Made by a program: the position numbers and the translations under genes. A DNA stretch of 33,962 nt from the NCBI GenBank assembly GCA_021815695.1, contig JAKAZT010000011.1, positions 1 through 33,962 of the forward strand, given 5' to 3'. The first letter of the stretch is position 1. Every line of letters begins with the position of its first letter. This DNA comes from Pseudomonadota bacterium. GTDB lineage: Bacteria > Pseudomonadota > Gammaproteobacteria > Xanthomonadales > Rhodanobacteraceae. A model generated the notes under the pieces. The model had not been told where the DNA came from. It ran no database searches and saw nothing but the letters and a program-made list of their open reading frames with translations. This document shows, in pieces, positions 22,069 through 25,700 of the stretch.

Positions 22069-22521
22069 TCAGGTTGGCGGCGGGACCAGATGCAGGCCGG
22101 CGACCGCGCCCTGCGCGCCATAGCTGAACTGCATGCCGACCACCTGTTTGCCGAAGGTCACCGGCACGACCACGTTGCGGTAGGGCGCCGGTGCCGGCAG
22201 GTCGCTGGCGGCGCCGTGGCCCCGGTAGGGTCCGTACTGCGCGACCAACTGCTGCCAGATTTTCTCCACTGCGGCGGGCGGGGCCGCTTGCTGCATGGCG
22301 GCGTCGAACCCGTGTGAGGCATCGGTCCAGCGACCTGCGGCCATCGCATCCACGGCCGCAGTCGCGGCGCCGTGTTCGGCGGCCATGCTGCCGGCGACCG
22401 CCGCGGGGGCAGTGGCGGGCATCACGGGTCGATTCGCCACCTTGGACGCCAGTACGGGAGCGCCCGCCAGCAGCGCTGCGCCGAGACCGAGCGCGGGTAT
22501 CAGCATGGATCGTGCGTTCAT
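22069..22521 (-). CDS. Secreted DUF3887-like protein
   Basis: The 150-residue protein begins with a clear signal peptide (MNARSMLIPALGLGAALLAGAPVLAS), so it is probably periplasmic. The mature part has a helix (AVDAMAAGRWTDASHGFDAAMQQAAPPAAVEKIWQQLVAQYG) followed by strands (NVVVPVTFGKQVVGMQFSYGAQGAVAGLHLVPP). That helix-then-sheet pattern is typical of DUF3887 domains, often found fused to or beside hydrolases. It may help a nearby enzyme, perhaps the VanY-like peptidase that follows 11 bp downstream; this is inference. The ATG at 22521 has a strong GGAGGAAA ribosome site. Confidence 0.75.
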   Translation of the reverse strand: MNARSMLIPALGLGAALLAGAPVLASKVANRPVMPATAPAAVAGSMAAEHGAATAAVDAMAAGRWTDASHGFDAAMQQAAPPAAVEKIWQQLVAQYGPYRGHGAASDLPAPAPYRNVVVPVTFGKQVVGMQFSYGAQGAVAGLHLVPPPT

Positions 22522-22567
22522 TGTCTTTCCTCCGTGGCGGGACCCGCAGCGGGCCGTGGGCGCCCGC

Positions 22568-22774
22568 TCAGCGCGGGCGCTTGAAGAACAGGGTAACGCC
22601 AATATACGGCGGTTCGTTGTGCACGCCGACCAGCTCCCAGCCCAGAGTACCGAGGTCACGCATTTCCCTGACCATGGGGTCGTCGTCGGGAAGCGCACCC
22701 GGTTCCAGTCGACCCATCAACGAGCACTTCTTCACCAGCACCAGATTGACGACTTTGTAGTCCCATGCAGCCAC
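22568..22774 (-). CDS. DUF4177 family small protein
   Basis: The 68-residue protein starts with GTG at 22774 (AAWDYKVVNLVLVKK), preceded by AGGAG seven bases upstream. DUF4177 features are WDYKVV at the start, LNTLGxEGWELV-like GTLGWELVGVH in the middle, and a final hydrophobic strand with basic end (TLFFKRPR). The family is small and soluble with unknown function, and often lies near membrane-associated or regulatory genes. It sits 37 bp downstream of the ribbon-helix-helix gene and 46 bp before the DUF3887-like gene. No ATG start is available in the conserved region. Confidence 0.82.
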   Translation of the reverse strand: MAAWDYKVVNLVLVKKCSLMGRLEPGALPDDDPMVREMRDLGTLGWELVGVHNEPPYIGVTLFFKRPR

Positions 22775-22811: not shown

Positions 22812-22994
22812 TCATTCGCTGCCGCGCTTGCGCGATGCACTGGCCGGCAAGCGGCCGGCCTTGCGCAACGCCTCGCGCAGCACGTATTCGATCTGCGCGT
22901 TGAGGCTGCGCAGCTCGTCGTCGGCCCAGCGCTGCATGGCGGCCAGTACATCGGCATTGACGCGCAGCGGATAGGCTTTCTTGTCGGCACTCAT
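22812..22994 (-). CDS. Arc-family ribbon-helix-helix DNA-binding protein
   Basis: The 60-residue protein reads as a single ribbon-helix-helix domain: KAYPLRVNADVLAAMQRWADDELRSLNAQIEYVLREALRKAGR, followed by a basic tail. Residues KAYPLRV form the DNA-contacting strand, and the two helices that follow dimerise. Such proteins are often called Arc-like or antitoxin-like, and usually repress their own operon by binding short tandem operators. The ATG at 22994 has GGAG five bases upstream. It lies between the SPFH gene and the DUF4177 gene on the same strand. The tandem 11-bp repeat upstream of the SPFH gene is a good candidate binding site. No toxin partner is evident. Confidence 0.87.
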   Translation of the reverse strand: MSADKKAYPLRVNADVLAAMQRWADDELRSLNAQIEYVLREALRKAGRLPASASRKRGSE

Positions 22995-23116: not shown

Positions 23117-23986
23117 TCAACCGTTGTACAGCGTGCCGGTATTGACTACCGGCTGGGTGCCGCGTTCGCCGCACAGCACGACCAGCAGGTTGGACACCAT
23201 CGACGCCTTGCGCTCCTCGTCCAGCTTGACCTGGCCGCCCTGCTCGAGGCGTTGCAGGGCCATCTCGACCATGCTGACCGCACCTTCGACGATCAGCATG
23301 CGCGCGGCGATGATCGCGCCGGCCTGCTGGCGCTGGAGCATCGCCTGGGCGATCTCCTGCGCATAGGCGAGGTGGCTGATGCGCGCCTCGACCACCTGCA
23401 CGCCGGCTTTGCCGAGGCGGGTCTGGATCTCGTCGCGCAGGTGCGTATTGATCACCTCGCCGTGGCTGCGCAACGAGGGCTTGCTGTCGTCGTGGGCGTC
23501 GTAGGGATAGCTCTGCGCCATCTGCCGCAGCGCGGATTCGGACTGGATCTGCACGTAGTTTTCGTAGTTGTCGACCTGGAACACCGCCTCGTAGGTATCG
23601 ACCACCTGCCAGACCACCACGGCGGCGATCTCGATCGGGTTGCCGTCGAAGTCGTTGACCTTGAGCTTGGACGACTCGAAGTTGCGCACGCGCAGACTCA
23701 AGCTGCGCTTGGCGTAGAACGGATTGGTCCAGCGCAGGCCCTCGTCGCGCGCGGTGCCGGCGTAGCGTCCGAACAGCTGCAGCACCTGGCCCTGGTTCGG
23801 CTGCACCTGGAAGAAACCCTTGTTGAGGAACATCCACAGCGCGAACAGCACCACCGCCGTGATGCCGGCGCCCGCGTCCTGGCGGTCGAGCCCGTCGAGG
23901 AACAGCGCGGCGATGCCGGACAGGGCGAGCAGCGACACCAGCAGCATCGGGATGCCGGACAGCGAAAGACCCTTGCGTTCGTTCAT
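23117..23986 (-). CDS. SPFH (Band 7 / prohibitin-flotillin) domain membrane protein
   Basis: The 289-residue protein has two hydrophobic N-terminal segments (about 10-30 and 42-56). An SPFH domain (about 58-235) follows: FQVQPNQGQVLQLFGRYAGTARDEGLRWTNPFY, SLRVRNFESSKLKVNDFDGNPIEIAAVVVWQVVDTYEAVFQVDNY. It continues with a helical region ending LAYAQEIAQAMLQRQQAGAIIAAR. SPFH proteins form ring-like oligomers on membranes, often with proteases or lipid domains. The stop is 122 bp before the ribbon-helix-helix gene. The ATG at 23986 lies 23 bp downstream of a tandem 11-bp repeat that probably controls the operon. The exact role is unknown. Confidence 0.92.
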   Translation of the reverse strand: MNERKGLSLSGIPMLLVSLLALSGIAALFLDGLDRQDAGAGITAVVLFALWMFLNKGFFQVQPNQGQVLQLFGRYAGTARDEGLRWTNPFYAKRSLSLRVRNFESSKLKVNDFDGNPIEIAAVVVWQVVDTYEAVFQVDNYENYVQIQSESALRQMAQSYPYDAHDDSKPSLRSHGEVINTHLRDEIQTRLGKAGVQVVEARISHLAYAQEIAQAMLQRQQAGAIIAARMLIVEGAVSMVEMALQRLEQGGQVKLDEERKASMVSNLLVVLCGERGTQPVVNTGTLYNG

Positions 23987-24009
23987 GGCAGACCCCCGGA
24001 TCGTGGGTG

Positions 24010-24031
24010 AAAGATATCATAAAGATATCAT
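24010..24031 (-). promoter_or_regulatory. Tandem 11-bp operator-like repeat upstream of the SPFH gene
   Basis: Two perfect copies of AAAGATATCAT (plus strand) stand head to tail, each with the palindrome GATATC, spaced about one helical turn. On the minus strand the junction also reads TATGAT, a possible -10 hexamer, but no good -35 was found. Tandem half-sites spaced this way suit a ribbon-helix-helix regulator, and such a protein is encoded in this operon. Confidence 0.6.
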
Positions 24032-24113
24032 CACGCGAGTGCGATCCGGTTCCGGACTCGCCGAAGAGCCCGGGCATCGCCAGCCGCCGTCGGTCGGGAG
24101 CGGGGACGCCGCT

Positions 24114-24473
24114 TCAGGGTTTGCCGTAGCGCTTTTCGTACTGGCCGCCGCTGAATCCGAGGCCGATCCGGCCAGGGCCGGACCACGCCACCGGATGCCG
24201 CAGCACGCCGGGGTGTTCGCGGATCAGCAGGGTCCACTCGGGGTCGCTGGCGGGGTCACGACGCACCGAAAGCAGGCGTTGCCAGGCTGCGCCGCCGCGA
24301 TCCACCAGTGCCTCCCAGCCGCCCGCGGCAGCGGCCCAGGCGCGCAGGGTGTCGGCATCCGGCCGCGACAGCTGCAGATCGACGAAGTCATGCACATGCC
24401 CGAAACGCTGCAGCCAGCGTCGCGCCTTGCCACAGGTGTCGCAGGAGGCGAGCCCGTACAGGGTCAGTCCCAC
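24114..24473 (-). CDS. Spx/ArsC-family protein, second (diverged) copy
   Basis: The 119-residue protein is an ArsC/Spx/YffB-family thioredoxin-fold protein. The N-terminus LTLYGLASCDTCGKARRWLQ has a CXXC, followed by FVDLQL and a middle helix rich in Trp/Ala (LRAWAAAAGGWEALVDRGG). It is paralogous to the gene just upstream, but the C-terminal RPVV motif (used in substrate or thiol chemistry in the family) is changed to HPVAW. I start at the GTG at 24473, which aligns with the start of the upstream copy; a TTG 27 bp earlier is possible. The start is 4 bp after the upstream stop. Neither arsenic genes nor an RNA-polymerase-binding role is indicated. The function is unknown. Confidence 0.8.
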   Translation of the reverse strand: MGLTLYGLASCDTCGKARRWLQRFGHVHDFVDLQLSRPDADTLRAWAAAAGGWEALVDRGGAAWQRLLSVRRDPASDPEWTLLIREHPGVLRHPVAWSGPGRIGLGFSGGQYEKRYGKP

Positions 24474-24477
24474 GCGC

Positions 24478-24828
24478 TCAGGCCCCGAACCGTTCGGCAA
24501 AAGTCTTTTCGCTGAAGCCGACGCTCACCCTGCCGTCGCGGACCACGACCGGGCGCTTGACCAGCGTCGGAAAGGCCGCGATCAGCGCCAGCCACTCGGC
24601 GTCGCTCGTCGCCGCCTTCTGCGCGCCGCCGAGGCTGCGCCAGGTGGTGCCGGCGCGGTTGACGAGCTTTTCCCAGCCCAGCGTCTGCGCCCAGACTGCG
24701 AGCGTGGCCGGCGCGATGGGCTGTGCGCGATAGTCCGTGAAGCGGTAGTCGATCCTGCGCGAGTTCAGCCAGTCGCGGGCCCTGATGCAGGTGCTGCAGC
24801 GCTCCAGTCCGTACAGTTGCGTGACCAT
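24478..24828 (-). CDS. Spx/ArsC-family protein (YffB-like), first copy
   Basis: The 116-residue protein is an ArsC/Spx/YffB-family protein with N-terminal VTQLYGLERCSTCIRARDWLNSRRIDYRFTDYR containing a CXXC. Other motifs are LGWEKLVNRAGTTWRSL and the conserved KRPVVVRDGRVSVGFSEKTFAERFG C-terminus. YffB-like genes are often next to dapD in gammaproteobacteria, and here the gene lies 47 bp after dapD. The family is annotated as arsenate reductase-like, but no ars genes are near and such a role is unproven; a redox or glutathione-linked role is more likely. The ATG at 24828 is the first conserved start. Confidence 0.9.
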   Translation of the reverse strand: MVTQLYGLERCSTCIRARDWLNSRRIDYRFTDYRAQPIAPATLAVWAQTLGWEKLVNRAGTTWRSLGGAQKAATSDAEWLALIAAFPTLVKRPVVVRDGRVSVGFSEKTFAERFGA

Positions 24829-24875
24829 GGCTGGTGCCGCGGCGGGTGTCGGGATCTGCCGCTGACGACGCATGC

Positions 24876-25686
<811 letters not shown>

Positions 25687-25700
<14 letters not shown>

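Follow-up and report, generated by a model that had tools for sequence, protein, structure and literature searches.

Twin GATATC boxes upstream of a bacterial SPFH gene form a putative operator for the ribbon-helix-helix protein of the same operon

Just upstream of an SPFH (Band_7) gene in the 33,962-nucleotide stretch of DNA analysed here (the window), two GATATC boxes separated by five bases form a repeat that recurs at the corresponding place in relatives and is, with two exceptions among 139 loci, found wherever a small gene for an Arc-like ribbon-helix-helix (RHH) protein follows the SPFH gene. We put at roughly 0.8 the probability that this RHH protein binds the twin box as two neighbouring dimers that cover the core promoter, and that it represses the SPFH-RHH operon in which it is encoded, a reading built on sequence comparison. 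According to the mechanism we propose, the RHH protein, encoded directly downstream of SPFH, would bind both GATATC boxes; two adjacent dimers would sit one helical turn apart, cover the -35/-10 spacer and the -10 region and shut the promoter; and such negative autoregulation of one dedicated promoter would hold SPFH and RHH at a set level. Contact between protein and DNA, cooperativity of the dimers and repression rather than activation are the parts of this mechanism that we infer. The main proposal of a preliminary description of this DNA, that the repeat would be the operator of the SPFH operon, is well supported as a prediction.

Both units of the repeat, at 24010-24020 and 24021-24031, read AAAGATATCAT in the window (together AAAGATATCATAAAGATATCAT), confirming the perfect tandem pair with GATATC cores that the preliminary description had reported; on the coding strand they give GATATC-TTTAT-GATATC, with boxes that step by 11 bp around a 5 bp spacer. 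The placement just upstream of the SPFH start also stands, 23 bp separating the repeat from the ATG of the Band_7 open reading frame (Table 1). The RHH gene had been placed two genes on, but it is the very next gene, following SPFH on the same strand after a gap of 122 bp. As to the tandem (direct) arrangement, the units are indeed identical, but their symmetry is ambiguous, because GATATC is self-palindromic and direct and inverted orders of the boxes are indistinguishable. Relatives partly show TTAGATATCA..TGATATCTAA-like outer flanks, and we rejected the direct repeat as the functional symmetry. The open reading frames upstream lie on the same strand (24114-25700, -) and include an ArsC-family protein, a second frame ending at 24478 that is similar by eye, and one at 24876-25700 (-) that we take to resemble DapD; read-through from these genes into SPFH is possible. 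Downstream (22069-22750, -) are a small protein with a weak, below-cut-off match to the Sp36 family and a DUF3887 protein.

Table 1. Positions of the features of the SPFH-RHH locus in the window.
Feature	Position	Strand	Basis or remark
Twin-box operator (putative), 2 x AAAGATATCAT	24010..24031		Coding strand ATGATATCTTTATGATATCTTT; kept in 85/85 family loci
Box 1, GATATC, promoter-distal, self-palindromic	24024..24029		Window sequence and relatives
Box 2, GATATC, promoter-proximal	24013..24018		Centre 11 bp from box 1, 5 bp spacer
SPFH (Band_7) protein, 289 aa, first operon gene	23117..23986	-	PF01145, E 1.6e-25
Arc-like ribbon-helix-helix (RHH) protein, 60 aa, proposed twin-box binder	22812..22994	-	Profile matches Arc structures
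Inferred core promoter of the SPFH operon	24009..24038	-	Family column analysis; inference
Weak inverted repeat, ACCC/GGGT, 4 bp	23992..24008	-	Marginal in the window's genome

Within the window's family, an SPFH orthologue (E<1e-100) occurs in 84 of 97 genomes, giving 85 loci (G037 has two), and the RHH gene (E <= 0.001) is found in the identical 84 genomes and at all 85 SPFH loci; the remaining 13 genomes show no RHH gene, no strict motif and at most weak SPFH paralogues. We searched from -250 to +60 of each SPFH start for GATATC-N5-GATATC, scoring the matching bases out of 12. The best score was 12 at 64 of the family loci, 11 at 20 and 10 at one, against 0 of 170 windows reaching 10 inside the loci downstream of the start, and 10 of 1700 Markov shuffles reaching at least 10. 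These nulls replace a wrong-spacing control (8-11), because such a control can share one true box. Position is conserved as well: of 84 placed sites, 80 leave 26-34 bp to the ATG; at three sites this distance is 64-65 bp, and at the last 179 bp. In the majority sequence of the family the spacer reads ATTTT, box 2 is followed by TAAT, and a TTG-like -35 precedes box 1 by a few bases. A set of 80 named contigs, including Xanthomonas, Stenotrophomonas, Lysobacter, Rhodanobacter and Dyella, scored 12 in 77 cases and 11 in three; these rank as the best 80 of at least 586 relatives and are therefore close, and their taxa overlap the family and are not independent of it. One locus from the window's own genus (L116, genome G071) keeps SPFH and RHH with a decayed box 2 (GATATC-AGTAT-GGTATT); a further GATATC lies 11 bp on, and the array there may have shifted.

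Beyond the family, 10 of the 369 genomes searched in the class and 43 of the 398 in the phylum have the RHH gene (E <= 1e-8); the 398 include 46 with SPFH (E<=1e-30) and none with RHH lacking SPFH. Every one of the 44 RHH loci outside the family lies beside an SPFH gene, and all 44 score at least 10 (19 at 12, 17 at 11, 8 at 10), a score reached by 1 of 88 internal windows and 7 of 880 Markov shuffles. In a plasmid collection, where the SPFH search returned 28 records of which 20 were examined (the other 8 being Vibrio), 8 of 10 SPFH-RHH loci score 10-12, and the loci span five phyla. The eight come from Acetoanaerobium (12/12), Phocaeicola (11), Prevotella, Parabacteroides, two Deinococcus and Nonomuraea (10 each, the last with a poor box 2, GCTAGC), and Qipengyuania. 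In the 5 kb stretches around these loci, six show no second place scoring at least 10, barring a further box 11 bp away; second places scoring 10 lie inside the SPFH gene of Deinococcus QL22 and elsewhere in the Phocaeicola stretch, so that a 10 says little about any single locus. The two RHH-bearing loci that deviate, both Rhizobiales, have no proper twin box (L278, Bosea, 9; L279, Rhizobium, 8). Both carry GATATCAGAAATC upstream, which is perhaps a changed operator.

Over all RHH-bearing loci, 137 of 139 score at least 10 of 12 (85+44+8 of 85+44+10), the loci not being independent of one another. In this count L161 and L183 are one locus, entered once, and L127, L129, L137 and L138 are family loci, entered only there. 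Three further records were left uncounted: L273 and L274, 'phage' records from faeces, end before the SPFH promoter, and L275 scores 11/12. A wide RHH alignment gave 8 pattern matches and no relatives among viral contigs. A related RHH gene on a Thermus thermophilus plasmid (L269, 1559-2683) follows an ABC transporter ATPase gene; this RHH, from one of two Thermus records, adjoins neither SPFH nor a box (best score 9/12, off site) and was also left uncounted. The preliminary description had held that lack of conservation upstream of orthologues would speak against an operator, and the repeat withstands that test at 85/85 family loci, 44/44 loci outside the family and 80/80 named contigs.

The box is absent where the RHH gene is absent. 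None of 13 SPFH homologues without RHH reaches 10, the best scores being 6-8: three from the 398 phylum genomes (G793, G515, G476) score 7 each and show no RHH by a wider profile either, and the plasmid collection adds ten for which the profile finds no RHH at E <= 0.01, with scores of 6-8. Deinococcus contains both states, with two RHH-less SPFH loci without a box and two RHH-bearing loci scoring 10. Presence of the box with RHH and absence without it support RHH as the binder, tempered by the fact that box and RHH share one locus and joint inheritance alone gives some correlation. On an SPFH tree of 51 proteins (36 of the 137 box-bearing, the 2 Rhizobiales and the 13 RHH-less), RHH changes three times and the box four times. 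Independent contrasts number two on supported branches and three on all branches, and across 200 pairings the box follows RHH in 1.9, runs counter to it in 0.0 and shows no difference in 0.1. With the RHH-less cases coming down to two or three independent losses, 0.05 is out of reach for a sign test. Long branches of this tree carry several of the RHH-less rows; the clearest single case is G793, which has starred support and is nested among RHH-bearing relatives.

The same distribution bears on whether the RHH protein might be the antitoxin of a toxin-antitoxin module, as the annotation of Qipengyuania NCF85_RS15410 as a HicB-family antitoxin (one plasmid record) would have it. The partner that all loci share is a Band_7 membrane protein (PF01145, E 1.6e-25) and not a small toxin, and SPFH without RHH in two Deinococcus species is unexpected for an addiction toxin; we consider such a module highly improbable.

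The preliminary description had also called AT-rich 22-mers rare in this DNA. The adjacent pair is rare, but the single 11-mer is not, 0.83 matches being expected in the window when two mismatches are allowed. The strict motif TGATATCNNNNTGATATC occurs once in the window's 2,184,086-base genome, at 24010-24031, and in 29 of the 97 family genomes, with one site in each, and comparison of coordinates places all 29 directly upstream of the SPFH gene; its reversed-control pattern has no match in the 97 genomes. Loosely spaced pairs are common, so the signal lies in the fixed 5 bp spacing and the position: GATAT-N(0-16)-GATATC has hits in 94 of 97 family genomes, frequently in large numbers (up to 98 in one), and was discarded as a search pattern. 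Among the matches listed, correctly spaced pairs away from SPFH are those of G072 C1, G013 C1 and G085 C59, with G/C in the spacer. A looser pattern, GATATNNNNNTGATATCA, matches 35 of 47 genomes, 33 of them at the SPFH promoter (33 of the 44 RHH-bearing genomes outside the family), and has three sites away from SPFH over the 47 (an extra one in G763; G728 and G476 have theirs elsewhere only). Strict and looser patterns both miss more degenerate sites.

Several sites per genome, as a global regulator would have, are thus not what the 29 strict-motif genomes or the three stray sites over 47 genomes display, and a dedicated regulator would fit this uniqueness better. The twin box could still be the site of a different, trans-encoded regulator, with RHH acting elsewhere, and the two RHH-bearing Rhizobiales loci without a twin box point that way. 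Against such a regulator with multiple targets stand the single site per genome under the strict motif and, under the looser one, the 33 of 44 RHH-bearing genomes with a site at the SPFH promoter, one of which has an extra site; and the box was not found where RHH is absent (0/13). We judge a trans-acting binder quite unlikely, and return to the RHH protein as the probable one.

Candidate -10 elements in the window are TATCTT at 24016-24011 and the hexamer at 24014-24009, with a weak -35 at 24038-24033. When -10 and -35 were scored together by column over 85 relatives (a consensus score without a null), column 15 was best in 42 and column 13 in 24, positions in and just behind box 2. The TATGAT that the preliminary description took for an embedded -10 is present in the window but is not what relatives conserve, its column 8 being best in only 5 of 85, and we dropped it. 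With either -10 reading, the operator would overlap the core promoter, and this overlap favours repression. The RHH protein might nonetheless bind the box and activate, or merely fine-tune, the promoter: NikR is an activating RHH protein, and the window's promoter is weak, a consensus scan of the window finding none at the repeat. AmrZ is an RHH protein that acts as both activator and repressor, but most RHH proteins are repressors, according to the available part of PMC3325190, and the boxes occupy the spacer/-10 region of the inferred promoter, where bound protein normally obstructs RNA polymerase, so that activation appears unlikely.

The conserved AT-rich block could also be a promoter element alone, with no regulator, and it does overlap the inferred -35/-10 layout. 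GATATC twice at a fixed 5 bp spacing is, however, not a sigma-70 consensus; four loci keep the box although its end lies 64-179 bp ahead of the start; and the 13 RHH-less SPFH homologues show no such box upstream. We regard a bare promoter element as a very improbable account of the block.

An inverted repeat lies between box 2 and the ATG in a number of relatives (L031, L073, L075, L087, L099 and others), with up to 10 perfect pairs and sequences that differ between genera. Stems of at least 7 occur in 34 of 155 leaders, compared with a mean of 13.3 and a maximum of 20 over 200 rounds in which halves were swapped between genomes, and the right arm often covers the Shine-Dalgarno sequence (44 of 59 leaders with stems of at least 6). 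Because the left arm precedes the inferred start site, any masking of the Shine-Dalgarno sequence would be confined to read-through transcripts.

The RHH protein itself resembles Arc. Its profile matches Arc structures (best E 2.6e-7), which establishes the homology at profile level; the single sequence remains below Pfam cut-offs (RHH_5 18.8 vs 26; Arc 16.9 vs 20.4). An AlphaFold (AF2) model of the monomer showed a helix without a strand and was set aside. The motif RS-x-N-(A/G/S)-Q is kept in 16/16 aligned RHH rows from five phyla, and the position matching Arc S35, a residue reported at the dimer-dimer interface in the available text of PMC2812701, is always A, G or S. The geometry of the DNA agrees as well, two half-sites one turn apart with a 5 bp spacer being found at 137/139 RHH-bearing loci. 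Arc half-sites stand five bases (GTGCT) apart, with a narrowed minor groove over this stretch, and in AmrZ a G/C-rich linker between half sites changes binding most (PMC3325190, in part); the spacer here likewise has five bases, mostly A/T. The preliminary description's suggestion that the spacing would suit two RHH dimers is in keeping with this match of the 11 bp step and 5 bp spacer to Arc, as the available text of PMC3325190 presents it.

Outside the family, 15 of 44 loci have a third box at +11 (scoring 4 or more of 6), compared with 10 of 264 control offsets; 11 of the 15 come from outside the window's class, and one group clusters with the alphaproteobacterium Qipengyuania in the SPFH tree. 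Three-box operators with an 11 bp step are seen at L158, L171, L181 and L170, as well as L264, L265 and L267, an example being GATATA-N5-GATATC-N5-TATATC. Such third boxes would fit an array of dimers stepping one helical turn.

SPFH proteins organise membranes, and to our knowledge little has been established on how bacteria set their amount. Here one SPFH subfamily comes with a very small putative regulator and an easily read operator, making the pair recognisable from sequence alone, and deletion of the RHH gene or mutation of the operator would offer a clean route to over-producing the scaffold and learning the role of SPFH. We see a slightly better than even chance that this is an ancient regulator-operator pair, confined to one promoter per genome across at least five phyla (Pseudomonadota, Bacteroidota, Deinococcota, Bacillota and Actinomycetota, the last two with one locus each), whose sole role is to adjust how much of one SPFH scaffold is made. 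Operator sequences, as far as we know, rarely survive such evolutionary distances, and a cross-phyla operator, if true, would be a rare example of a regulator and its operator conserved so deeply. The RHH protein would be an autoregulator of the known Arc type; what is unusual is how far across phyla a single dedicated operator extends. Among the matches listed by our literature search, outside which most subscription papers fall, there is no paper on the SPFH-RHH pair or on a TGATATCA operator; PMC8656257 mentions SPFH and ribbon-helix-helix and, in its available part, concerns other SPFH proteins.

The system shares with the Arc repressor of phage P22, as far as the available sources describe the latter, homology of the RHH core, a 5 bp separation of half-sites and a small residue at the dimer-dimer interface. 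It differs in its strand residues (YPLR here, FNLR in Arc), in its box (GATATC, where the Arc half-site is TAGA), in a partner that is a chromosomal SPFH gene and in the third box of some operators outside the family. AmrZ of Pseudomonas has a wide set of target genes, unlike the single promoter per genome found here, and carries an additional C-terminal segment. It too is an RHH protein closest to Arc/Mnt, with two sites at its own promoter (PMC3325190, in part). RelB on relO likewise places RHH dimers on one face of the DNA with essential spacing, according to the available text of PMC2812701, but uses 6 bp repeats in 12 bp half-sites and a co-repressor toxin, RelE, whereas no toxin partner is known here. 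The whole words 'Arc', 'DNA-binding' and 'repressor' are absent from the available main text of PMC2636767, which deals with NfeD-linked SPFH operons. Those operons are, as ours are, conserved two-gene SPFH units (PMC2636767, PMC13086221, both in part), but the partner of SPFH here is a predicted DNA-binding protein.
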